10,541 nucleotides of DNA, taken from positions 1 through 10,541 of the forward strand of contig JAFZXD010000270.1 of the NCBI GenBank assembly GCA_017616955.1. Reading direction: 5' to 3'. Below are positions 1 to 10,541 of the stretch, piece by piece. Both the position numbers and the translations under genes were made by a program. Below the pieces are notes generated by a model. That model searched no databases. It was given only the letters and a program-made list of their open reading frames with translations, and had not been told where the DNA came from. This DNA comes from Eubacterium sp. GTDB taxonomy: Bacteria > Bacillota > Clostridia > Lachnospirales > Lachnospiraceae. The stretch's first letter is position 1. Each line of letters begins with the position of its first letter.

Positions 1-98
1 ATAAGGACTCGCAGATCACGAGAGAGATATACCTTCATGTTACTGAAACTTTGAAATCAAGGGATAATAACATACTTGAAAATGCTGCCATTCTATAG
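1..98 (+). CDS. int: Tyrosine recombinase (integrase), C-terminal end only
   Basis: Frame 3 of the plus strand is open from the window edge to a TAG at 96-98 and gives about 31 residues beginning KDSQITREIYLHVTETLK. This resembles the last catalytic block of phage tyrosine integrases, (LGH)xDxxxTxxIYxHVTxxxK. The two bases before the first full codon are AT, consistent with a CAT (His) codon. The Tyr at 30-32 would be the nucleophile that cuts and rejoins DNA at the attachment site. The rest of the gene lies left of the window. It is convergent with the tail operon, and the DNA just after it (99-327) has repeats suited to an attachment region. The fragment is short, so the call rests on this motif alone; a conjugative-element integrase of the same family cannot be excluded. 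Confidence 0.75.
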   Translation, partial: KDSQITREIYLHVTETLKSRDNNILENAAIL

Positions 99-120
99 TT
101 ATTTCCCCTTTATTTCCCCT
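99..120. repeat. Tandem direct repeat pair A, unit TTATTTCCCCT
   Basis: Two exact copies of TTATTTCCCCT lie head to tail at 99-109 and 110-120, starting at the base after the integrase stop. The unit recurs in the same orientation at 305-327. Direct repeats beside an integrase are typical of arm-type integrase binding sites, but a regulator site is also possible. Confidence 0.6.
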
Positions 121-139
121 CCTAATTTAACAGCACCTC

Positions 140-182
140 GCAAACGTACTATTTTAGCCACTTTTTAGTAATATATGTTTGC
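140..182. repeat. Imperfect palindrome, candidate recombination core
   Basis: GCAAAC at 140-145 is mirrored by GTTTGC at 177-182, and TACTA at 147-151 by TAGTA at 166-170, around an A/T-rich centre. It lies between the two direct repeat pairs. Nested inverted half-sites around a short spacer suit a tyrosine recombinase core, but the spacing is uneven, so this is only a candidate. Confidence 0.35.
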
Positions 183-203
183 ACCAGACGGGTATATATT
201 ATA

Positions 204-254
204 GTAGAAAAAAATCCTTATGTATAGTACATTTATGCTATTCATAAGGATTTT
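204..254 (-). terminator. Rho-independent terminator of the tail/DGR operon, possibly bidirectional
   Basis: AAAATCCTTATG at 211-222 pairs perfectly with CATAAGGATTTT at 243-254. After one mismatch, ATAG (224-227) pairs with CTAT (238-241), leaving a 10-nt loop. On the minus strand the stem runs into seven T residues (208-214), the usual layout of an intrinsic terminator for the leftward operon. On the plus strand the arm ends in only four T, so ending of integrase transcription from the other side would be weaker. The stem is A/T-rich, which lowers certainty. Confidence 0.6.
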
Positions 255-304
255 CTATACTTTTCTGTTTGCCATATTTGCCACAGTATGCTATCAATTT
301 GAGG

Positions 305-327
305 TTATTTCCCCTTATATTTCCCCT
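305..327. repeat. Tandem direct repeat pair B, unit ATTTCCCCT
   Basis: ATTTCCCCT occurs at 307-315 and 319-327; the first copy extends to the full TTATTTCCCCT of pair A. The orientation matches pair A about 200 bp away, with the hairpin and palindrome in between. Two arm-site pairs flanking a core would fit an intact attP. Confidence 0.55.
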
Positions 328-379
328 TATATAGAAACAGCCCACAATGCAGCAGAACCACATTGCAAGCTGTTAAGGA

Positions 380-401
380 AAGATAACTTACTCGTTATCT
401 T
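380..401 (-). other. Small hairpin spanning the end of the 50-aa gene
   Basis: AAGATAAC (380-387) pairs with GTTATCTT (394-401) around a 6-nt loop that contains the stop codon of the 50-aa gene. On the minus strand it is followed by TTCC, not a real T-run. It may slow ribosomes or stabilise the mRNA end; it is a poor terminator by itself. Confidence 0.35.
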
Positions 402-540
402 CTCTATCTTCATGAGGGATTTCCTCAAGAATGACCGAATATGTATATTGCGATTTGATGATATTCGATTCCGGGACCTGATATTTCTCGGCTATCATCT
501 TCTTTATATCTGATTGTTCCAATACGATTGCATTCTTCAT
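388..540 (-). CDS. Small phage protein, 50 aa, function unknown
   Basis: ATG at 538-540 and TAA at 388-390 give 50 residues beginning MKNAIVLEQSDIKKMIAEKY. GGAGGAG lies 10 nt upstream of the start, so translation is well supported. The sequence is charged, with a predicted amphipathic helix (about residues 8-20), a short region that looks like beta strand (SQYTYSVI, residues 30-37) and an acidic tail (EDREDNE). There is no signal peptide or membrane segment. It is the last gene of the tail/DGR operon, 26 bp after the XkdX gene. The stop codon sits in the loop of a small hairpin (380-401). Similar short proteins are common near the end of Firmicutes phage tail modules, but I know of no assigned function. 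Confidence 0.65.
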   Translation of the reverse strand: MKNAIVLEQSDIKKMIAEKYQVPESNIIKSQYTYSVILEEIPHEDREDNE

Positions 541-566
541 TCCTCTTCATCTCCTCCGATGATATC

Positions 567-677
567 TTAGTATTCTTCCTTTGTAAGTCTTCCCAGCTCA
601 TAGAGATGATCAATCTGAGCCTTATTCCATTTTTCTGGATAATACTTCTTAGCCATGTCATATACTGCTTTACTCAT
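567..677 (-). CDS. XkdX-family phage tail protein
   Basis: ATG at 675-677 and TAA at 567-569 give 36 residues. The sequence begins MSKAVYDMAKKYYPEKW and ends LGRLTKEEY. This matches the short XkdX family (PF09693; B. subtilis PBSX XkdX) in length, in the aromatic and Pro-rich start and in the G(R/K)LTxEEY end. XkdX genes sit in the tail or baseplate region of many Firmicutes phages; their exact role is unknown. The start is preceded by AGGAGG, and its ATGAGTAA overlaps the end of the 54-aa gene, so the two are probably translationally coupled. Its presence here shows that the DGR sits inside the tail operon rather than at its end. Confidence 0.8.
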   Translation of the reverse strand: MSKAVYDMAKKYYPEKWNKAQIDHLYELGRLTKEEY

Positions 678-834
678 TGATTATATCCTCCTCTTCTGGT
701 AATAATTCCGGATGATCGCAAGCGATGATGTAATCCTGGAATGCTTTGTTATTATCAGCTTCTGCAACCGCATTCTCTACATCCTTAGCCTGTCCTATCT
801 CCATCCCTATCTTCTCGATTATACTGTTTTTCAT
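670..834 (-). CDS. Small phage protein, 54 aa, overlapping the RT gene
   Basis: ATG at 832-834 and TAA at 670-672 give 54 residues beginning MKNSIIEKIGMEIGQAKDVE and ending with an acidic stretch (LPEEEDIINE). AAGGAGA lies just upstream of the start, inside the RT coding sequence, and the first 50 bp overlap the RT in another frame. The end overlaps the XkdX start by 8 bp. The strong ribosome site and coupling on both sides make it very likely real, although it is short and matches nothing I recognise. It looks soluble and helical, with no membrane segment. It is probably a small tail-associated protein that stood before XkdX until the DGR cassette came to lie upstream. Confidence 0.65.
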   Translation of the reverse strand: MKNSIIEKIGMEIGQAKDVENAVAEADNNKAFQDYIIACDHPELLPEEEDIINE

Positions 835-1879
835 CTTCAATCTCCTTCCATTTATCTTGATACCACTTATTCATCGCTTCAATCAGCTTATGAGTATTCC
901 CGAATCTGAGAGAAGCTTTCCAACTTTTGAAATAGACATCTACATCCCTTTTTCTTCTTTTATCATTCAAGGTGAGAAGCATCATCCTCTTCATTTTTCT
1001 TTTAGCATGAGAGATTGATTCCGGCTTTACTGTAGCAATAACTTTCCCTGTATCGAGAAGTCTGTAATCATATCCCAAAAATGCAATTTTATTTGTAATC
1101 GGCTGGATGAATGTTTTTTCCGGATTCAATGCCATATCCTGATTTTTGAGGATATTCTTGATTTCGCAATGTGCTTTTTCAAGATACTCCTTATCTGGAT
1201 GAAGCAGAACAAAATCATCCATGTATCGGATATAATATTTGATTCGGAGCCTTTCTTTGATGTAATGGTCCATTTTATTCAAGGCTAATATGCCGATATT
1301 CTGAATTGTCTGCTCTCCTGGATTAAATCCTATATCTCCGGGATGATAGTCAATCTCAGCTTGAATTAGTTCATCAGTTAATGGATCTACATACTGGGTA
1401 ACCATATTTTTGACAAACTTTCTATTCATATTTGGATAATAGCCTTTGATATCACAAGTGAGAGCATAGCCTTCTATTCCGTTCTTTCTATAGAAATCCC
1501 GGATGAAGTCTCTGAATCTCTCTCTTGCTGACAGAGTTCCCTTTCCCTTTTGACAAGCGAAATTATCGGGAATCAGTGATCTGGTGATTTGAGGATATAA
1601 AGCATTATCATTGAAGCTTCGGATGTATATCCTATCTCTGAAATGAATACTCATTATTTCTCTGACCTTTGGCTCAGTAATCATGAAGAACTTTGGTTTT
1701 CTTTTCTGATAAGTGCCGTCAGAGAGTTCTTCTTCCATTTTCAGAAGCTCGGTATTCCAGTTGTGAATATAGTATCCAGTTGTTGACTTCCATCCAACTC
1801 CCTTTTTACATTTTTGAAGAGAGTTGAATAATGCATCGTATCCGATTATATCTTCGATTTTGGTTGTGGTTTCTATCAA
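785..1879 (-). CDS. DGR reverse transcriptase (error-prone, YMDD type)
   Basis: This copies the TR RNA into adenine-mutated cDNA that replaces the VR. Numbered from the upstream ATG at 1931-1933, the palm motifs are TCDIKGYYPN (first catalytic Asp161) and YIRYMDDFVLL (YMDD at 237-240). NPEKTFI and AFLGY follow. The region DNFACQKGKGT (123-133) is typical of phage DGR RTs. There is no maturase or endonuclease domain as in group II introns, and the length suits a DGR RT. Start choice: the ATG at 1933 lacks a ribosome site, whereas AGGAG lies 8 nt before a TTG at 1877-1879, giving 364 aa and an N-terminus (IETTTKIEDIIGYDALF) of normal family length. Motif 4 reads PGEQTIQ, where DGR RTs usually end in SQ. 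The 3' end overlaps the 54-aa gene. Confidence 0.93.
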   Translation of the reverse strand: MIETTTKIEDIIGYDALFNSLQKCKKGVGWKSTTGYYIHNWNTELLKMEEELSDGTYQKRKPKFFMITEPKVREIMSIHFRDRIYIRSFNDNALYPQITRSLIPDNFACQKGKGTLSARERFRDFIRDFYRKNGIEGYALTCDIKGYYPNMNRKFVKNMVTQYVDPLTDELIQAEIDYHPGDIGFNPGEQTIQNIGILALNKMDHYIKERLRIKYYIRYMDDFVLLHPDKEYLEKAHCEIKNILKNQDMALNPEKTFIQPITNKIAFLGYDYRLLDTGKVIATVKPESISHAKRKMKRMMLLTLNDKRRKRDVDVYFKSWKASLRFGNTHKLIEAMNKWYQDKWKEIEDEKQYNREDRDGDRTG

Positions 1880-1982
1880 GTATCTAACTCCTATCCCGCA
1901 AGATATTTGTATCTTAATAGTCTGTTTATCCATTCACTCATGGAAGGGTTTTCGGTTCCTTGCGTATCTTTTTGATATTGCA

Positions 1983-1999
1983 ACTATACTATGTATAGT
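1983..1999 (-). other. Perfect hairpin in the TR-RT spacer
   Basis: ACTATAC (1983-1989) and GTATAGT (1993-1999) are perfect inverted arms around 3 nt. It begins 21 nt past the 3' end of the TR on the transcribed strand. It could be structure needed by RT/Avd for priming or, less likely, an operator-like site. Confidence 0.45.
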
Positions 2000-2020
2000 C
2001 CATCTGAATATCCTACTACC

Positions 2021-2145
2021 CAATCAAGGGGCGAGCCTATTGCCGTTGTTCGCGTTGTTGTTGTTGACGTTGCCCGAAGTGTTCACATTCCAAACATTAT
2101 TAGCGTTGCCACGGTTAGCCGACCGGAGCCAGCGGTTGCGAGCCG
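2021..2145 (-). repeat. DGR template repeat (TR)
   Basis: These 125 bp align without gaps to 2663-2787 at the end of the target gene (offset 642). There are 110 identical positions and 15 differences, and at all 15 the TR coding strand has A. The TR holds 33 adenines, 30 of them in 15 AAC or AAT codons when read in the target frame, so mutagenesis samples NNC/NNT codons and cannot create stop codons there. The homology stops sharply at 2145, six bases after the Avd stop codon. The last 14 bp before the spacer side, AGGCTCGCCCCTTG on the minus strand (2025-2038), form the IMH* equivalent. Confidence 0.95.
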
Positions 2146-2151
2146 ATCAAC

Positions 2152-2574
2152 CTACAACCCATATCTTTTTACTTCGCTTTTATACCATCTTTCGATGGAA
2201 TTCTGAGCCTCAACTGTCATTTTAGTCCAGTGTCTGACTCTGGAAGCTTTAAGATGAAATAGTTTTTGTGAGATCATGATGTCTGAATGAAGATCTTCGC
2301 ATAATATCAGACTTTCTCTTTCGAGTTTTATCCTGGCATGATATCTTTCTGAGAGTTCAACAGGATCTTTTGTTCTCATATCGATTTTATTTGCAACTCT
2401 GCATTTGTGATAAATCATGCAAGTTTCTTCTGCAATCTTATCTATCATCTTCTGATACCTCAGAATGAATATCTTTTCATTCGTCAGAATCTGACAGGTA
2501 TATGATACTAGATTCAATATGATATCCAAAGTATTAAATCTTGATACTGACTGTTCATTTTTTCTAACTGACAT
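2152..2574 (-). CDS. avd: DGR accessory variability determinant (Avd-like four-helix protein)
   Basis: ATG at 2572-2574 follows AAGGAGA and encodes 140 residues. Avd proteins are small basic four-helix bundles that assemble as pentamers, bind the DGR RT and nucleic acid, and are required for mutagenic retrohoming (known from BPP-1). Here the protein is Lys/Arg-rich, apparently all-helical and free of membrane segments. It carries the segment IYHKCRVANKID (about residues 54-65), which I recall from Avd-like proteins of Firmicutes DGRs, and ends WYKSEVKRYGL. Its position is diagnostic: between target and TR, with its stop 6 bp from the TR edge. It is slightly longer than BPP-1 Avd. The 23S rRNA intervening-sequence protein has the same fold, but this context points to Avd. 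Confidence 0.85.
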   Translation of the reverse strand: MSVRKNEQSVSRFNTLDIILNLVSYTCQILTNEKIFILRYQKMIDKIAEETCMIYHKCRVANKIDMRTKDPVELSERYHARIKLERESLILCEDLHSDIMISQKLFHLKASRVRHWTKMTVEAQNSIERWYKSEVKRYGL

Positions 2575-2610
2575 CTTATCTCCTTAATCATGAAAGAAAA
2601 TTTATAATGA

Positions 2611-2637
2611 CCGCCCGAGCAGGGATGCTCGGAGCGG
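2611..2637. promoter_or_regulatory. DGR hairpin/cruciform downstream of the VR
   Basis: CCGAGCA (2615-2621) pairs with TGCTCGG (2626-2632) around loop GGGA. The stem is extended by CCGC (2611-2614) with GCGG (2634-2637) past one bulged A. Many DGRs have a GC-rich stem with a 4-nt loop (GRNA consensus) shortly after the IMH that boosts retrohoming; GGGA fits that consensus on the plus strand (TCCC on the coding strand). It lies about 29 bp past the IMH, after the target stop codon. No T-run follows on the minus strand, so it does not look like a terminator, and avd would stay cotranscribed. Confidence 0.75.
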
Positions 2638-2647
2638 ATTGTATCGA

Positions 2648-3865
2648 TTATAGACCGATACGCAAGCAAGGGGCGAGCCTAAGGCCGTTGCCCGCGGTGC
2701 CGTCGTAGACGTAGCCCGAAGTGCTCACATTCCAAACATTATAAGCGTTGCCACGGTAAGCCGACCGGAGCCAGCGGTAGCGAGCCGTTGTCTGTGCTGC
2801 CAGATCGTACTTGATCAGCCTTGCGTATGTAGCTCCAGTTGATGCCGGAGTAGTCCTTCCGAGAAGTCTCTTATAATATTCCCAATATTCACCCTCTCCG
2901 CTTATCTGAGGGTTAATGTAAGACTGTTCCAGGCTGATCAGAAATACGCGGTCATAAGTCTCATCCATTCCTCCGAGTGGTGTATCGCCTGAATTAAATA
3001 CATTATTCCTTGCTGTGGTTACTTTGGTAACCTGCATATAATGCAGCAGCTCCGGATCAAATCCCTTCAAGAATCCATCTTTTGTATCAGCGTATGCAGG
3101 TTTTACATCCCATTTATGCTGCTGCGTCCACCATGAGCCTGCTGCCTTATCACTGTTAAGATATTGGCGAACTGCAGAATATTTCCATCTATTATATCCT
3201 AATACTACGCAATGCCAGTAATTCAGATCTCCGGTTCCGTCTGTCTCTCCGAGACTTGTTCCGGTTGGATTTTCTGTTACAACAGTAAATGCAAGAGCTT
3301 CTCCTGTTTTATCAGCTCCATTTGCAAATATTCCGAGTGTACAGTTCTCGATTGCTGCATTGTATCCACCGCTCTTTTTTCTGATCTGCTTTCCTGCTGT
3401 CAGGTCTTCGGTAAGAGTGAACTGAACATATTTTCCATTATTATTTCCCCATGCATCATTCACTATTTTAAAGTAGTAATCTCCTGCTGCGAGATCACTT
3501 GCTGATGCATATATTGCCTCTGGATCGTCATATACACAATCGAATGGAAGAACATAATGCGATTCAATATCCGCGACTTTGATATCTTCCTGATCTTCAA
3601 GCTTAGCAGTCTCAAGGTGGCATAGATTGAATCCCATAGTATAGTTATTTGATCCATCTGCCCATGCAAGATTGATCCTGTCACCATAATCCATTACTTC
3701 CAGAAGCTCATCATTCTTGATAAGCTCCGCAACAGCTTCCAGATTAGTTACAAGCTCTGCCCTCTTATCTGCAGCCAATAAATCTATAGCTGCATTCTGA
3801 TGAGCTATCAAATGGTTCAATGCATCAAGCTGAGCATTAATTACCGGTACTCCCTGTAGTGCCAT
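2648..3865 (-). CDS. DGR target: C-type-lectin-like tail tip / receptor-binding protein
   Basis: The 405-aa protein starts at ATG 3863-3865, 10 nt after AGGAGG. Residues 1-60 look helical (DALNHLIAHQNAAIDLL) and may anchor the protein to the tail. A middle region (about 65-210) of unknown fold follows. The last ~190 residues resemble the DUF6273/formylglycine-type C-type lectin domain: NYWHCVVLGYNRW, AVRQYLNSD, DRVFLISLEQSY and RYRWLRSAYRGNAYNVW. The C-terminus NGLRLAPCLRIGL plays the part of the G-R-P-A-L-like end of DGR targets. The VR covers about residues 360-401, so variation falls on the ligand face of the CLec fold. Place after the baseplate genes suggests host-receptor binding. That role is inferred; the DGR target assignment rests directly on the VR. 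Confidence 0.92.
   Translation of the reverse strand: MALQGVPVINAQLDALNHLIAHQNAAIDLLAADKRAELVTNLEAVAELIKNDELLEVMDYGDRINLAWADGSNNYTMGFNLCHLETAKLEDQEDIKVADIESHYVLPFDCVYDDPEAIYASASDLAAGDYYFKIVNDAWGNNNGKYVQFTLTEDLTAGKQIRKKSGGYNAAIENCTLGIFANGADKTGEALAFTVVTENPTGTSLGETDGTGDLNYWHCVVLGYNRWKYSAVRQYLNSDKAAGSWWTQQHKWDVKPAYADTKDGFLKGFDPELLHYMQVTKVTTARNNVFNSGDTPLGGMDETYDRVFLISLEQSYINPQISGEGEYWEYYKRLLGRTTPASTGATYARLIKYDLAAQTTARYRWLRSAYRGNAYNVWNVSTSGYVYDGTAGNGLRLAPCLRIGL
2663..2787 (-). repeat. DGR variable repeat (VR)
   Basis: This is the recipient copy, encoding about residues 360-401 of the target. Relative to the TR it shows six A-to-T, six A-to-G and three A-to-C changes on the coding strand and none at C, G or T. 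The changed codons are 363, 370, 375, 381, 385, 387, 388, 389, 390, 392 and 395. Codon 400 also differs but lies beyond the invariant IMH and is probably a fixed IMH/IMH* difference. Asn codons 373, 376, 379 and 393 still match the TR. Confidence 0.95.
2667..2680 (-). promoter_or_regulatory. Initiation of mutagenic homing (IMH) site
   Basis: The 14-bp GC-rich AGGCTCGCCCCTTG (minus strand) is identical in TR and VR and lies at the 3' end of the VR, where cDNA integration begins in known DGRs. It contains an adenine that has not changed. BPP-1 has a 14-bp G/C element in the same place. The next base differs (C in VR, A in TR), marking the IMH versus IMH* distinction. Confidence 0.75.
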
Positions 3866-3885
3866 ATTTTAAAATCCTCCTTTAT

Positions 3886-4086
3886 TTAATCCTCTCCATC
3901 ATCTACATAGACATAGAATAATCCGTTATCATCTACCATCAAATTGTTAGCGAACAAATGAGGTATATCCATCTTTCCTGTTCCAATAATGGAATCAACC
4001 GCCATGACTGCTCCGGATGGAAACTGAGTATATTCTCTCGTTAGATTTCTTATTCTGATTGTTTCTTCATAAATAGGTTCCGCCAT
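3886..4086 (-). CDS. Small protein, 66 aa, between baseplate and target genes, function unknown
   Basis: ATG at 4084-4086 follows AAGGAGGG, which overlaps the stop codon of the upstream baseplate gene. TAA at 3886-3888 lies 20 bp before the target start. The protein begins MAEPIYEETIRIRNLTREYT and ends with acidic VYVDDGED. It looks mainly beta-stranded (a possible small beta domain) with no signal or membrane segment. I do not recognise it. Its fixed place between the adsorption protein and the diversified protein, with tight coupling on both sides, suggests a small structural connector or an assembly helper for the target. Confidence 0.75.
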   Translation of the reverse strand: MAEPIYEETIRIRNLTREYTQFPSGAVMAVDSIIGTGKMDIPHLFANNLMVDDNGLFYVYVDDGED

Positions 4087-4099
4087 ATATATGCCCTCC

Positions 4100-5032
4100 T
4101 TACACTCTTATATACTGACCGAGTTCATTTACAAATACCGCTCCAGGTGTTCCCAGACAATTAAAACCAATCCTACTCTTTAAGCATTCAATATAAATAT
4201 CATTTTCAGCATTGTCATTAGTTATGTAAAATCTGACTTCTTCATCTTCGTCTCCACGATTTATAACCATAAAATCGTAATCGGTCCACGGAAGAGCTTT
4301 CAATCCATTTATATAAACGAAAAAGATATCATTATCTTCATATTTATATCCGGTCGGAGCAAATTGATAATATGCCGGTGATCCGCTCTTACGCGTTGGA
4401 GATTCCTCATAATTCTGGATAGTAGTCTGCACTCTTAATTCTCCAACCAGATCATCAAACCACTCCTGAAAAGCTGCCTGCATATCCGTATAGTATGCAT
4501 TAAAGAGATCCACCCACTGATTATACAGAGTTGAAATATCAAGTTGTGTGATCAGTCCTGTCACCCATCCACAATCATCCGTTGATCTTGCATCTTCTAT
4601 GTTAGTGCCTGATATAGTAGAAGAAGCAGCCGGAACGGTGACATACGCAAGAGCAAGCTCCCATATTGATTCATTCTGTGTCAATGATGGTTTATCTGGT
4701 GTTGGTGCTGGTTCTCCATCAACCGTGGATATCTCCATAAGACGATTGACGTTATCAAGTCTCATTACTACTACAGTAATTCGATTAAGAGTTGCATGGC
4801 TTCCGGTTATCGGAACCGAAATGACGGCATCATTATCTATCCACTTGCAATCAATCACTCCTCGGCCGGAACCGACATTGACATTCATGCCATCTCCTGC
4901 AGTGACTACTAATCCCGATCCGACTGATTCAAATACTCCGTTTCCGATCAGTCCTTTGAAGTAACTAGACATCTGATCAGCATCGTATTTTCGATCTCCA
5001 TTTTCAGAATTAAAAAATCCGTATGTTATCAT
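4100..5032 (-). CDS. Phage baseplate / tail adsorption protein
   Basis: The start is taken at ATG 5030-5032, which overlaps the upstream TGA (ATGA) and has GGGAGG 7 nt upstream; this gives 310 aa. A further in-frame ATG at 5045-5047 would bury that ribosome site in coding sequence and is less likely. The N-terminus ITYGFFNSENGDRKYDADQM and the following Gly-rich GSGLVVTAGDGMNVNVGSGRG are typical of Firmicutes siphophage baseplate proteins (BppU-like upper baseplate and related families). A helical segment, LYNQWVDLFNAYYTDMQAAF (about residues 173-192), follows, then a beta-rich C-terminal domain. It probably links the hub to receptor-binding proteins, here including the DGR target. The family assignment is by pattern, and the exact baseplate role is inferred. 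Confidence 0.8.
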   Translation of the reverse strand: MITYGFFNSENGDRKYDADQMSSYFKGLIGNGVFESVGSGLVVTAGDGMNVNVGSGRGVIDCKWIDNDAVISVPITGSHATLNRITVVVMRLDNVNRLMEISTVDGEPAPTPDKPSLTQNESIWELALAYVTVPAASSTISGTNIEDARSTDDCGWVTGLITQLDISTLYNQWVDLFNAYYTDMQAAFQEWFDDLVGELRVQTTIQNYEESPTRKSGSPAYYQFAPTGYKYEDNDIFFVYINGLKALPWTDYDFMVINRGDEDEEVRFYITNDNAENDIYIECLKSRIGFNCLGTPGAVFVNELGQYIRV

Positions 5033-6147
5033 TGTATAACCTCCCATTCTGAGAATGTCAGCTCTGAATTGATTCCATTCTCATCTTCTGCGTATACTAT
5101 TCCGATAATTCTTGCATTCGCATTGATCCCGATTTCAGTTTTGACGGTAACTATATCTCCTAAAAAATAATCTTTATTGAGCTTATATATTCCATCAGAT
5201 TCTATCTCAGCAGTGAAATCAAGAAGCTTCTGCTGGTTAAGTTCCTGCTTTGCTTCGCCTCTTAATACTTCCCGATATTCCTGTTCTGAAAGACTTGTAT
5301 CTCCTTCTTTTGAACTCAGCGAAGAATCAATATATTTTTCAAAACGATTGAAGCCTGTCGGTTGATTATCTGCCGGATAATATGTATTTTTTCGTTTTCC
5401 GGCATTTGGTGAATCATCCGGATATTCTTCACCATAGATATAGACCATGTTCTTAAAATTCGTAACATCCTTCTGATAAGTCGATTTATACAGATTATCA
5501 AATTCCTTTGAAAAGATAATCGGCATATTTATACTCTGACTCACAGATCTATCTTCACCTTTCAGGAATGCAAAATGATAACTTCCATATTTAATATAGA
5601 CATCCCATCCCCATCCATATTCCCGGCATTTTTCTTCAAGCCATTCAGCAAAATTTTCTCCGAGAACCTGAACATCAATTTGATTCGTAAATCCTATCGC
5701 TGAATCTAATCCAAATCCAGGTATTAATCTATTAGTTGTTGTAATAAATATGGAAGTTATCAGATTTCTGATCTGCGTCTCAGCGTTCCCCTTGAGATTT
5801 TTCGCAGGAGTAAGAACTCTCTTCCTGAACAAGTCATTTTTGAGTCCCTTTCCGATTACTCTCATAATTATTCCGTTATCGATATCATATTCGATAATGA
5901 CCGTCTGAATTGCCATGACATTATGCATCTCATCATTCTTCCAGTCGATTTCTCTTACCAGGTATGATCCTTCTTTCAGAAGTCTAATATTTTCTTCGGA
6001 ATAGGCCGTCACCAACTCAAAATAGCTCTGGCCTTGAAATTCTATATTCCATATCAAAGATTGATATACTTCCAGCATTCCGATAGTTGACACATTAGAA
6101 TCTGCAGCCGGATAATCAACCCTTGAATCTCTTAATACATATATCAT
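5029..6147 (-). CDS. Siphovirus ReqiPepy6 Gp37-like tail/baseplate hub protein
   Basis: The 372-aa protein starts at ATG 6145-6147, directly after the distal tail protein stop (TAGATG), with GAGGGAG upstream. The N-terminal beta region (YQSLIWNIEFQGQSYFELV), the central FAEWLEEKCREYGWGWDV, and the C-terminal block FLGDIVTVKTEIGINANARI followed by LTFSEWEV fit the ReqiPepy6 Gp37-like family (PF14594). That family takes the place of the T4 gp27-like hub or Tal protein, attaching below the distal tail protein and carrying adsorption proteins. No peptidase or lysozyme domain is visible, unlike longer Tal proteins. It overlaps the next gene by 4 bp, indicating translational coupling. Confidence 0.85.
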   Translation of the reverse strand: MIYVLRDSRVDYPAADSNVSTIGMLEVYQSLIWNIEFQGQSYFELVTAYSEENIRLLKEGSYLVREIDWKNDEMHNVMAIQTVIIEYDIDNGIIMRVIGKGLKNDLFRKRVLTPAKNLKGNAETQIRNLITSIFITTTNRLIPGFGLDSAIGFTNQIDVQVLGENFAEWLEEKCREYGWGWDVYIKYGSYHFAFLKGEDRSVSQSINMPIIFSKEFDNLYKSTYQKDVTNFKNMVYIYGEEYPDDSPNAGKRKNTYYPADNQPTGFNRFEKYIDSSLSSKEGDTSLSEQEYREVLRGEAKQELNQQKLLDFTAEIESDGIYKLNKDYFLGDIVTVKTEIGINANARIIGIVYAEDENGINSELTFSEWEVIQ

Positions 6148-7005
6148 CTATACTCCCTCATATAATGTATTGATGTATAATACTCCATTTAAGAATTGAG
6201 CATTGCCTTCCGCATTTGTACATAATAGCTGAATAACATTCTCACCCGGAAGAATCTTCAAAAATGTGCTTCCAGTCATCATCCTTCCGATTGCATTTGA
6301 TACAACTCCCAATGCATTTCGAATTGATATGCTCTTTTCTTTATCAATAGTATCGATGATAAGCTCTTCTCCCGGAGACAGATTTCCGGTGATTCCGATA
6401 TATTCTCCGGTTGAGACATTGACAATCTTGACATTGCTGCAAGTCAGCTCCGCCCTAATTGATGCAATCATTCCCGATGCAACATGACCATGATTGAATA
6501 TAGTCTTATTTCCATAGATATCTATTTCGCTGAATGGGATTGGTTCTTCAATCTCAAATGGAAATTCAAATAGTTCAATCGTATTTCCAATATCTAGGCC
6601 TATATCAATCATATCCTTCCAGTAAGGATCTGGGCATCTGAATACTATGACAGCCTTCTCTTGTATGTCGAAGTAACTTATCGGCATACTTTGTAGGTAT
6701 CCATCAATATATACGTCTTTTTGACCATTACTGAAAAATATGCGATGTCTCTGTTTGATCTTCAAATAATTATAAAGCATCAATCTGTTATCTTCTGCCG
6801 GACCATTAATAGCTAATACTATAGTCAAAACTCTAGGCTCAGCTTTCGCAGAATTGAACTTTGTGCCATCCATCCCGAATACTTCATTTTCATTAATTCG
6901 TGCATCTATAGGAGACAGACCATCAATCTCCTCCACCGTATAACATGATGAAGATGTCAGATCTATCTCTCTGTTATATTCATTTCTTATTCTTAAAGAA
7001 AACAT
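6148..7005 (-). CDS. Distal tail protein (Dit, Sipho_tail family)
   Basis: The 285-aa protein starts at ATG 7003-7005; its ribosome site TAGGAGA overlaps the stop of the tape measure gene. The N-terminal half has the Dit pattern: early beta strands, FGMDGTKFNSAKAEPRVLTI (about residues 43-62), and the end of the belt domain AVIVFRCPDPYWKD. The C-terminal half (FNHGHVASGMIASI, then EELIIDT and GENVIQLLCTN) resembles the galectin-like domain of PF05709 proteins. Dit forms the hexameric ring joining the tail tube end to the baseplate hub. The order tape measure, Dit, hub agrees with the canonical siphovirus order. Length is normal. Confidence 0.9.
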   Translation of the reverse strand: MFSLRIRNEYNREIDLTSSSCYTVEEIDGLSPIDARINENEVFGMDGTKFNSAKAEPRVLTIVLAINGPAEDNRLMLYNYLKIKQRHRIFFSNGQKDVYIDGYLQSMPISYFDIQEKAVIVFRCPDPYWKDMIDIGLDIGNTIELFEFPFEIEEPIPFSEIDIYGNKTIFNHGHVASGMIASIRAELTCSNVKIVNVSTGEYIGITGNLSPGEELIIDTIDKEKSISIRNALGVVSNAIGRMMTGSTFLKILPGENVIQLLCTNAEGNAQFLNGVLYINTLYEGV

Positions 7006-7014
7006 TTGAATCTC

Positions 7015-10000
7015 CTATAATATGCTCTTAAGCAATGCAATCTGCTGCCTTCTTGCCTGGTATGTTTCCAGAGCTGATAAGCTCTTCGGACTGTTATTAG
7101 TCTGATTTAGGTTATAATTATTTGTTACATTTGATACGTTTGAATAATATCCTGTTTCTGAGCTTGTTGGGATTGACAGATTTTCTCTAGCTGTAAAGGT
7201 TGAATCCTTAAGGCCTGCAATGAGTCCATTCCCAGAGTTTTCCATCAAGTTATTAATAGAATTTCTGGCTTTTGATGCCATATTCTTAAAGCCTTTAACA
7301 AATGCACCCTGCCCCAGTCCAGATACTGCATTTTCCGCTTCTCCCGACATACTTTCTATGCCATCTATGAATCCAGCCACTAGATCAACTCCACTTTTCT
7401 TAGAATCTTGATCAAGTCCTGATACTGCATCAAATGCAAGTCTTGTGGCTGCAGCTACTACATTTTTGGTCATGTCTGTTATTCCCAGCTCATAACCCTC
7501 ACCGAAATATTGACCGCTCAATCTCGTAAGCTTTGATGGTGAGCCTTCTTTCTGGCCTTTTTTCAGAGCTTCAAGTGCTTTTTTCGCCATGTTAAAGGCT
7601 GCAGACCATACATCGTTTGTTTTGTTTTGGATACCATTAACAAAGCCCTGTCCAAAGTTTTCACCGGAAGACTTCGTATCTCCAGATCCACTCTCCAATG
7701 CACTGTTGGCATTTTCTCCCATACTCTTTGCAGATGCTGCAGACTTACCGGAGTTGCTATCAATTCCACCTGCATATTCATCAGCAAACTGGTTTCCTTC
7801 TTTTGCCGGAGCATCTCCTGGTTTTGCACCTTCGGCAGCTGCATTTGCAAGTGATGCACCGCTGTTCTTTGCAGCCTGCTTGTTCGATTCGGATCCAACC
7901 TCACTTGCATATCCTGATCCGGTCTCTTTTCCGTACTTTTTAGCCTCATCAGGAGCCTTCGCAAGTTCATCCTTAGCTTTTTTGACCATCGTTTCTGCCT
8001 GCTTGCGAGTTTCTTCAGATACTCCCGGAGTGCCGTCCTTGATAGCCTGCTCAATCAGTTTTAGATTTTCCTCATAATCCTTGACCTGCTTCTCAAGTGT
8101 TTCCTTCGTAGCTGTTTCCGCAGTCTGGAAATTATAAACCATGTTATCCATGGCCTCATTTATCTTTGATGCATCTCCACTGATGATCGCACTTGATAGA
8201 CCTTCATAATTCTTTATAGTTGACTGATAGCCTTCATAAGTGCTTTTTGCTTTCTCATAGGCTGTTCGAGTTTCTCCAACCGCTCCCTGTGCTGAGTGGA
8301 GTTCATCTTCTGTCTTTTTTAATGTGCTGTTATAAGCCTTCTGAATATCATCAGCATCACCGCATATGTCATTTAGTTCAGCCCACTTCTCTGCTCCAAG
8401 ACTCTGAAGTTCAGTAAGTCTTGATTCAGCATCATTCATCTCATCGACATTTGCCTTGTATATTTTTCCAGCTTCTGTCATTTCGGTGAGAGCAGTCTTG
8501 CTATTCTTAACAGCCTCTGTGTATGCTTCTTCGGAAGCTGTGAGGACTGCTTGAGCTTCTTTTTTCTGAAGCAATTCATCAATAGCATCTATCTCTTCCC
8601 GATAATTATCAATAATGCCATCAGTCAATGTTATTTCAGTTCCAAGAGCATCATTAAGAGTGCCGATTATAAAGTTGGCTCTGTCCTCATAGCCTTCTTT
8701 AACTTTTCCATTCTCATCGACCAGCGTCTCAAGTTCTTCCTTAAGTTCTCCGTAATGAGCATATTCTTCCTGAATGCCAGCAATGTTTTCCTTCCGCTCT
8801 GCTTCCATATTGCGGTAAGCTTCAGTCATTTCGTTGATTGAATCAACGTGTTTCTGCTCTTCCTCAGTAAGTGTTGGAAGCTGTTCTTTGTATTCGTCAT
8901 CGGTACTTATCAGCCATAATACTGCAGCGGCAAGACCTGCGACAGCTGCTGTGACCGCTCCGATTACGTTTGCACTCTGAGCAGCGTTAAGAAGTTGCTG
9001 TGCTGTTGTAGCTCCTTCGGTTGCTGTCTTAAGTGTCTGGAATGTCTTGACCAGTCCTACGATCATGCTTATGAACGAGGTTATCTTGTTCACCGCAAAG
9101 GTTGCTATCAGAACTGTTCCGACAGCTTTTACTATGGTCATTATTCCATCGAAGTTGTTGATCAAGCCAGTGAGAAGCTTTGCAATCGTGGTGATAACAC
9201 CCTTGATGGTGTCCTTAATTGCCGGAGCATTCTGTTTGATTGCATTCATAACGTCCTTGAACGCATCTTTTATAATTCCGAGCAGTTCATCTATATCTTC
9301 ACTATTTTCATCGAGCATTTCTGATATGTACTGACCAACCTCTGCCTTCATTCCCTGGAATGTCAGCTTTATCTTATCGGAAGCATCGAGTGTTGCATCG
9401 TAGGTCTTATCGAGGTTGCCTTCGTAGTCTGTCATTGCATTTCCGAGATCCTCGAAGTTGAGTCTTCCGGAAGCACAAGCCTCTGCGATTGCAGGACCTG
9501 CCTTAGTTCCGAACAGCTCCATCGCTGCAACTGTCTTTTCTGAATCGGATGTCGATGCAGCCATGGTTGCTTGGAGTTCCGCAAGAGCATCCTTGGTTGA
9601 TGTTCCTTCTTTCGCACTATTTGCCAGAGCCTTTTTGAGTCCCTGCATTACTGTATCCGCATCAACTCCGGCAAGCTCAAGCTGTCCTAGGAATGTTGTG
9701 GCTTCATCAACGCTGAATCCCATATCCTTCAGAGAGGCTGCGTTTGTTGTCAGCGAAGAAGTAAGCTTATCAACTGAAGCTTCTGTGGTCTGACCTGTTG
9801 CATTCAGCAGATCAAGGAATTTATCAGCATCCTCCATCGAAATGCCCCAGGCAGTCATTGCTGAGTAAACGTTATCGATTGAGGTTGAAACATCTGTATT
9901 GTTCAGCTGTGAGAATTTCAGCATCTTTTCTGAGAAACTCTGAAGCTCATCTCCGGATAGACCAAACTTTGTGCTAATCTCACCAATCGCATTCGCAATA

Positions 10001-10541
10001 TCGTTTGAATCTGCAACTATATCCTTTGATACGTTCACATATGTGTCTCTTAATCCTTCAAGCTCTTTTCCGGTTGCTCCGGTCTTCGCTATCATCGTAT
10101 CTTCAGCAGCATCGAACTCTTCATAAGCTTCCTTTGCAGCACTAGCAAGGTCCTTGAATCCACTAATCATTGCTTTGATTCCGGTTGCTACAAGATCAGC
10201 CATGACAGCCTTCATCGTGGTGAAGCCATCATCAAGATCCTTGAGATTCTTATCAGCATCCTTCATTGAAGAACCAGACTCATCTAACTCATCGGAAAAA
10301 CGTCCAGTTCCTTCCTTGCAGTCCTTCAGATCCTGCTCGTAAGTTCCAAGCTCTTTCTCGGTCTTGGCAACAGCTGCTTCCAAGTTATTAAGCTTGATCT
10401 TGGCTCTGTCTGCCTCTGCGGAGTTCTCTCCGTAAGCTTCCTTGGTCTTTTCCCATTCTTCCGTTGCAAGAGCCACCTGAGTCTTCTGAGCCTTCAGGAT
10501 AGAATTAAGTTGTTTGATCTTAGCCTCAAGACCATCTGCGG
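7015..10541 (-). CDS. Phage tail tape measure protein (TP901 family), 5' end cut by window
   Basis: The frame is open to the right edge, so the N-terminus is missing; 1174 complete codons are visible, ending at TAG 7015-7017. A GTG at 10474-10476 is internal, because the upstream codons continue the coiled coil (ADGLEAKIKQLN). The order is: a coiled coil of Lys/Glu heptads (about 10540-10200), then the TP901 core domain (about 10110-9430) with EDTMIAKTGATGKELEGL and AMELFGTKAGPAIAEA. Two hydrophobic segments follow (about 9160-9040 and 8970-8905), then long coiled coils (about 8880-7950), a Gly/Ser/Ala-rich repeat region (about 7940-7300), and the C-terminal NNSPKSLSALETYQARRQQ. It sets tail length and is ejected during DNA delivery. 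No peptidase domain is visible. Confidence 0.93.
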   Translation of the reverse strand, partial: ADGLEAKIKQLNSILKAQKTQVALATEEWEKTKEAYGENSAEADRAKIKLNNLEAAVAKTEKELGTYEQDLKDCKEGTGRFSDELDESGSSMKDADKNLKDLDDGFTTMKAVMADLVATGIKAMISGFKDLASAAKEAYEEFDAAEDTMIAKTGATGKELEGLRDTYVNVSKDIVADSNDIANAIGEISTKFGLSGDELQSFSEKMLKFSQLNNTDVSTSIDNVYSAMTAWGISMEDADKFLDLLNATGQTTEASVDKLTSSLTTNAASLKDMGFSVDEATTFLGQLELAGVDADTVMQGLKKALANSAKEGTSTKDALAELQATMAASTSDSEKTVAAMELFGTKAGPAIAEACASGRLNFEDLGNAMTDYEGNLDKTYDATLDASDKIKLTFQGMKAEVGQYISEMLDENSEDIDELLGIIKDAFKDVMNAIKQNAPAIKDTIKGVITTIAKLLTGLINNFDGIMTIVKAVGTVLIATFAVNKITSFISMIVGLVKTFQTLKTATEGATTAQQLLNAAQSANVIGAVTAAVAGLAAAVLWLISTDDEYKEQLPTLTEEEQKHVDSINEMTEAYRNMEAERKENIAGIQEEYAHYGELKEELETLVDENGKVKEGYEDRANFIIGTLNDALGTEITLTDGIIDNYREEIDAIDELLQKKEAQAVLTASEEAYTEAVKNSKTALTEMTEAGKIYKANVDEMNDAESRLTELQSLGAEKWAELNDICGDADDIQKAYNSTLKKTEDELHSAQGAVGETRTAYEKAKSTYEGYQSTIKNYEGLSSAIISGDASKINEAMDNMVYNFQTAETATKETLEKQVKDYEENLKLIEQAIKDGTPGVSEETRKQAETMVKKAKDELAKAPDEAKKYGKETGSGYASEVGSESNKQAAKNSGASLANAAAEGAKPGDAPAKEGNQFADEYAGGIDSNSGKSAASAKSMGENANSALESGSGDTKSSGENFGQGFVNGIQNKTNDVWSAAFNMAKKALEALKKGQKEGSPSKLTRLSGQYFGEGYELGITDMTKNVVAAATRLAFDAVSGLDQDSKKSGVDLVAGFIDGIESMSGEAENAVSGLGQGAFVKGFKNMASKARNSINNLMENSGNGLIAGLKDSTFTARENLSIPTSSETGYYSNVSNVTNNYNLNQTNNSPKSLSALETYQARRQQIALLKSIL

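Follow-up and report, generated by a model that had tools for sequence, protein, structure and literature searches.

A probably functional phage diversity-generating retroelement whose reverse transcriptase departs from the SQ motif

The 10,541-nucleotide contig JAFZXD010000270.1 of the Eubacterium sp. assembly GCA_017616955.1 (hereafter the window, meaning the whole stretch of DNA analysed) very probably carries, as judged from its sequence, a functional phage diversity-generating retroelement (DGR), in which a reverse transcriptase (RT) would rewrite the variable repeat (VR) of a tail-protein gene from a template repeat (TR). Motif and tree position assign this RT to a DGR subgroup in which a hydrophobic residue replaces the serine of the SQ motif, proline or alanine precedes the motif glycine, and adenine specificity appears to be kept. 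We observed the TR/VR anatomy, an adenine-only divergence of the repeat core and, among near-identical members of a sister lineage, VRs that had been rewritten recently. The initial annotation had proposed a complete DGR with all its parts in order on one strand, and such an element indeed lies there, on the minus strand (Table 1).

Table 1. Features of the window, in window coordinates
Feature	Position	Strand	Basis or remark
Target gene, VR, hairpin, Avd-like gene, TR, spacer, RT	3865 -> 785	-	Order as in BPP-1
DGR-type RT, 382 aa, YMDD	785..1933	-	PF00078; region-4 motif PGEQTIQ instead of (I/V/L)GxxxSQ
Spacer, TR core to RT, with IMH* edge	1934..2024	-	Position only
TR, 121-nt core, 32 adenines	2025..2145	-	Repeat comparison
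Avd-like accessory gene, 140 aa	2152..2574	-	Predicted four-helix bundle
Hairpin/cruciform after VR	2611..2636	-	Arms 2615-2621 and 2626-2632; loop TCCC 2622-2625 (sense strand)
DGR target gene, 405 aa	2648..3865	-	DUF6273 (PF19789) at residues 223-400; VR at 3' end
VR, 121-nt core	2667..2787	-	Repeat comparison; 129-nt repeat reaches 2659
Upstream tail module: 66-aa open reading frame (ORF), structural protein, Gp37-like minor tail protein, Dit, tape measure	3886..10539	-	Profile matches
Two small ORFs downstream of RT	670-840 and 567-677	-	Open frames
31-residue open frame at contig edge	3-98	+	Convergent with tail operon

Repeat anatomy and recent rewriting of the variable repeat

The two repeats form a 129-nt pair (2017-2145 and 2659-2787) with 88% identity, and 15 of its 16 mismatches fall at TR adenines in the coding direction (hypergeometric p 1.7e-9); within the 121-nt core all 14 do so (p 6.2e-10). 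Beyond the core, at the 3' end of the 129 nt, lie one A to C and one G to C mismatch, where the initiation of mutagenic homing site (IMH) and its TR counterpart (IMH*) are expected to diverge; the core stops after a GC-rich run, as IMH does, and TR and VR diverge past it. The VR occupies the 3' end of the target ORF (residues 360-403, at the C-terminus), and the TR lies outside the ORF, near the RT. The core mismatches, nine at codon position 1, five at position 2 and none at position 3, alter eleven VR codons from residue 361 to 399, and codon 400, at the edge, also differs through the A to C change past the core. By a codon-table count, AAC and AAT codons of the VR frame hold 30 of the 32 core TR adenines, and changes at these adenines cannot yield stops. 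Searching the window's own assembly (58.6% complete) with the TR returned only this TR and this VR, with no second VR found in that portion of the host genome.

We propose that the TR region would be transcribed, the spacer probably forming part of the priming RNA by analogy with the DGR of phage BPP-1, and that the RT and the Avd-like protein would copy the TR RNA into complementary DNA (cDNA), misincorporating opposite adenines. The mutated cDNA would then take the place of the VR in the DUF6273 tail-protein gene, with the IMH at the VR 3' end and the hairpin beyond it serving as guides. The codons rewritten would be mainly the stop-proof AAC and AAT.

Three contigs of one phage in a sister lineage (L005, L006 and L007) carry the same TR and vary at 21 sites over the 4632 bases that they share. 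Of these sites 20 lie in the VR, all at TR adenines; these 20 set L006 apart from L005 and L007, and the remaining site sets L007 apart. Between L005 and L006 every one of the 20 differences in the compared bases is thus a VR difference opposite a TR adenine. In longer blastn alignments of this pair, one of 6042 bases contains 21 mismatches and another of 796 bases a single one, and therefore about two of these 22 lie outside the VR. The chance of at least 20 of 21 sites falling in a 120-nt VR stretch is about 4e-31, a figure that treats sites as independent, though one homing event can change many. The RT motif of L005 is PGSQIVQ, and the RT frames of L006 and L007 have the same length and score. 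A second set of relatives (L010, L012, L013 and L014) varies at 36 sites over 9591 bases, and 33 of these sites lie within the VR or at most 15 nt away, all 33 at TR adenines; this set is uninformative on the variant motif because its RT motif is SQ. VR differences among related phages are therefore, as the initial annotation had anticipated, almost entirely confined to TR adenines rather than spread evenly over the bases.

The window's own lineage was compared by proteins only. Of two target alleles, P0145 shares 96% identity with the window target and differs from it at 16 residues (10 in the VR), and P0146 shares 95% and differs at 21 residues (12 in the VR). The codons of these VR differences contain an adenine in the window TR in 9 of 10 cases for P0145 and 12 of 12 for P0146; among all VR-core codons, 17 of 39 do.

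Reverse transcriptase motif and adenine specificity

The best PDB sequence match of the window RT is 8ub7_A (E 1e-20), whose title reads DGR ribonucleoprotein reverse transcriptase, and a group II maturase matches at 7e-8. Its motif PGEQTIQ aligns without gaps to IGSLTSQ of BPP-1 and departs from (I/V/L)GxxxSQ. Among the 120 listed of 1791 RT homologues (E up to 0.001), with the motif tallied by alignment, the residue before the glycine is proline in 117 and alanine in 3, and the motif ends in VQ in 87, IQ in 33 and SQ in 0. Because the departure from SQ is common to all 120 listed homologues, it is not a fresh mutation. Only the glycine and the final glutamine are shared by all DGR-type RTs aligned here.

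The motif (I/V/L)GxxxSQ was found in 90% of 155 elements and described as perhaps not absolutely necessary, and SQ was proposed as a predictor of DGR RTs and perhaps the reason for adenine-only mutation (PMC3521204). SQ was present in 57 sequences of a 62-member clade (PMC4244168), and an SP motif occurs in one DGR RT whose element was missed by myDGR, for which the absence of SQ was blamed (PMC11054128). DGRs have been divided into six clades, of which three are almost exclusively viral (PMC8144416); in the main text of that study the terms motif, GxxxSQ, hairpin and DUF6273 each occur 0 times, and its catalogue probably includes the hydrophobic-Q group. Single VQ cases were already seen in earlier work, and we found no description of the hydrophobic-Q group in the literature searched by title and abstract start. 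Position 181 of the BPP-1 RT, the isoleucine of IGxxxSQ, reportedly affects adenine mutagenesis.

In a tree of 62 RTs built without the motif columns, the window falls in a 40-row group (Shimodaira-Hasegawa-like approximate likelihood ratio test, SH-aLRT, 100) among DGR RTs and separate from the outgroup of two group II RTs, in keeping with the initial placement. The third non-DGR row of this retron-free tree, L045, sits within the DGR RTs but on a very long branch; L028 (BPP-1) and L037 also have long branches, so the deep order is unsure. A second tree of 110 DGR-type RTs, built without outgroup classes, places the 62 [P/A]-hydrophobic-Q rows on one side of a branch with support 98. It could be argued that such an RT has another job, as a defence RT, retron or group II intron, and merely lies beside an unrelated repeat, given NCBIfam matches to group II, Drt3a, Drt5 and retron RTs and 47 RT-like PADLOC models (best E 3e-27). 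However, the NCBIfam scores lie far under their cut-offs (best 61.9 bits against 300) and the PADLOC models come without cut-offs, while the best PDB match is a DGR RT, the tree position is among DGR RTs, and the adenine-only TR/VR pair in its expected place is diagnostic. With the adenine-only change between L005 and L006 already speaking against another job for this group, we consider this explanation extremely improbable.

A DGR in decay, with the RT inactive for want of SQ and the VR a fossil of past rewriting, would accord with published suggestions that SQ departures may be sequencing errors or inactivations (PMC3521204 and PMC4244168). Yet the RT, Avd-like and target frames are all open, SQ is absent from every listed homologue, and L005, with its PGSQIVQ motif, differs from L006 in 4632 compared bases only in the VR and at TR adenines, which makes decay very improbable and favours a DGR that works with its variant motif.

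To compare motif groups, we examined 114 loci with an RT, keeping near-identical loci and leaving out 15 (window copies, repeated contigs, loci without RT, outgroups), and picked repeat pairs on length and identity without using adenine bias. A pair was found in 50 of the 57 loci with PG..[IV]Q, and in 49 of these at least 75% of mismatches fall at TR adenines (619/624), counting L102, a distant 4-mismatch repeat that is probably not TR/VR; the fiftieth, L076, has 4 of 6. The AGSQLIQ loci L075 and L077 have 7 of 12 mismatches at TR adenines, and L113 (LGSEMMQ) has 9 of 19. Among 36 SQ loci a pair was found in 29, of which 24 are adenine-biased (278/283); four of the five unbiased pairs (L115, L019, L043 and L044) are long repeats, not TR/VR, and the fifth, L124, has 9 of 13.

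For mutation spectra we retained distinct pairs that spanned 90 nt or more and had 75% or more of their mismatches at TR adenines, a filter through which the counts at other bases are partly circular, and VRs in both groups are under selection. The 40 filtered [P/A]G..[I/V/L]Q loci show 574 changes at adenines (to C 0.22, G 0.42, T 0.36; a mean of 0.46 of adenines changed) and changes at 3 of 3230 other positions, and the 14 filtered SQ loci show 199 (C 0.20, G 0.43, T 0.37; 0.48 changed) and 4 of 1129. The groups differ neither in spectrum (p 0.86) nor in changed fraction (p 0.29). That adenine specificity and spectrum are the same without SQ speaks against the serine, or the aliphatic residue before the glycine, as their cause. 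Ten loci with LGSxxTQ (L030, L093, L094, L100, L103, L105-L108 and L112), with GNNA hairpin loops, have 152 changes at adenines and 0 of 696 elsewhere, and their RTs look intermediate between SQ and hydrophobic-Q.

Hairpin loops across motif groups

A GC-rich hairpin of 7-10 bp with a 4-nt loop, of sense-strand consensus GRNA, has been described after the VR, in which the structure of the stem matters but not its sequence, and both size and sequence of the loop are critical; the factor that reads the loop was left open in the available text of that study (PMC3240598). Archaeal DGR hairpins are reported to have GRA trinucleotide loops (PMC4372165), and therefore lineage-wise departures from GRNA were already known. 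The window hairpin, with its 7-bp stem and 4-nt loop, fits the published type; DNA folding of the 51-nt stretch gives -13.2 kcal/mol (z -4.6, with 1 of 200 shuffles as good). Its sense-strand loop TCCC is off the GRNA consensus, and the complement GGGA fits it. Neither this loop nor the RT without SQ featured in the initial annotation. Across seven loci, with L004 set aside as a near copy of L005 and pairs counted around the loop, stem positions 5-7 vary (GC, TA or CG at position 5) and pairing is mostly kept, the only exception being L018, in which positions 4 and 5 are broken.

Hairpins beating shuffles were found in 43 of 53 variant-group loci, 9 of 10 TQ loci and 14 of 24 SQ loci, and several of the misses reflect VRs cut short by repeat detection. 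Loop sequences were compared among hairpins beating 95% of single-base shuffles and having 4-nt loops, after removal of 7 near-copies. GNNA loops, a class chosen after the loops had been inspected, occur at 15 of 16 loci with S/TQ RTs and at 5 of 29 in the variant group, all five GCAA (Fisher 6e-7); the published GRNA loops occur at 9 of 16 and 0 of 29, respectively. In the variant group 15 of 29 loops are CACC, CACT or CACG, and TCCC is found in the window and L018; unlike TCCC, CACC does not fit GRNA when read on the other strand (GGTG). Some variant-group hairpins have loops of 3 or 5 nt, with the sequence GAA in two cases. On the RT tree, loop class changes only 3 times over 44 rows, so that the association of loop and RT motif may be shared descent and is not proof of co-adaptation. 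It is a tentative and rather doubtful proposal that these elements form a distinct DGR type in which the SQ motif became [P/A]-G-x-x-x-hydrophobic-Q and the loop shifted from GNNA to mostly CACC- or TCCC-like sequences jointly. In this proposal a factor encoded by the DGR itself, the RT or Avd, would read the loop, which would make these DGRs orthogonal to BPP-1-like ones, and adenine infidelity would be independent of the serine and of the residue before the glycine.

Target, genomic setting and related systems

The DUF6273 profile match of the target scores 54.8 bits against a curated cut-off of 23.5, and Foldseek against the PDB returned a single match at E < 0.001, 9qa6; the protein would bind a host receptor. 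Relatives of the target gene were seen in L025 (6001-7395, 42% identical) and L027 (6001-7146, 55% identical), whose 13-kb stretches contained no RT frame or TR/VR-like repeat that we could find, and genes of the target family may exist with no DGR close by. Searches of Pfam, NCBIfam, PHROGs and PADLOC at E 0.001 gave no match for the Avd-like ORF, and its predicted bundle resembles Avd (4dwl), among other helical bundles; an Avd alignment against viral contigs was confirmed in 2 of 110 stretches.

The gene order and strand are those of the BPP-1 DGR (mtd, bbp7, which we take to be avd, TR, brt), in which a tail-protein gene likewise carries the VR at its 3' end, a hairpin follows the VR, and the mismatches are adenine-only (17/17 over the 119 nt detected). 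BPP-1 also has a small four-helix accessory protein, a fold predicted for the Avd-like protein of the window. BPP-1 differs in its RT (24% identical; IGSLTSQ against PGEQTIQ), its loop (GAAA against TCCC) and its target (Mtd against DUF6273). VR-carrying DUF6273 domains are described for the Faecalibacterium prophages Lelie, CP11, Roos and Pioen (PMC11792537) and phages nd4 and nd12 (PMC10743442). The RTs of nd12 and Lelie, 34% and 30% identical to that of the window, both have SQ motifs, and their detected VRs follow the RT (two targets each according to PMC10743442 and PMC11792537), whereas the window VR precedes it. The initial suggestion that target family and gene order might be undescribed is therefore not supported, and neither the DGR architecture nor the DUF6273 target family is new. 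The crAssE-Sib DGR, with GxxxSP (PMC11054128), also departs from GxxxSQ but retains the serine, whereas the window group loses the serine and retains the glutamine, with proline or alanine for I/L/V in many RTs. Roseburia phage Shimadzu (LR596903) has annotated Avd and RT genes after a tail fibre gene, as in the window, but baseplate-type tail genes, the RT motif LGSETSQ and an RT 32.5% identical.

The DGR sits in a siphophage-type tail operon with tape measure, Dit, Gp37-like and structural genes upstream, the tape measure gene being cut on the 10539 side by the contig end. Downstream of the RT, the ORF at 567-677 presumably resembles XkdX, a likeness matched by no tool, and a small ORF at 388-540 on the minus strand has a DUF7225 match below threshold (19.7 bits against 27). 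The frame at 3-98 reads to us like the C-terminus of a tyrosine integrase (matched by no tool), so that the contig is probably one end of a temperate phage or prophage. Beside this presumed integrase end lies an imperfect repeat (82-119 and 288-325, 71%) with TTTCCCC runs, possibly attachment or integrase arm sites. No near DNA match to the window was found in 50,697 phage records and no Rfam match in the window at gathering scores, and promoter- and terminator-like sites in 1-4200 are about at shuffle level (18 against 15.0 and 2 against 2.4).

An RT search at E 1e-20 was positive in 1 of 61 genomes of the same genus, the window's own, which leaves the host unconfirmed, and misbinning of the contig is possible. 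Among relatives from named assemblies the nearest, L018, is a 7268-base contig of a Paludibacteraceae metagenome-assembled genome, with an RT start 78% identical to that of the window, and with TR, VR (12/12 mismatches at A) and hairpin also present; it, the window contig or both may be misbinned phage contigs.

Searches based on the SQ motif may miss the hydrophobic-Q group. The DGR group of the window provides a natural test of the role of the SQ motif, and its differing hairpin loops offer natural variation with which to ask what factor recognises the loop.

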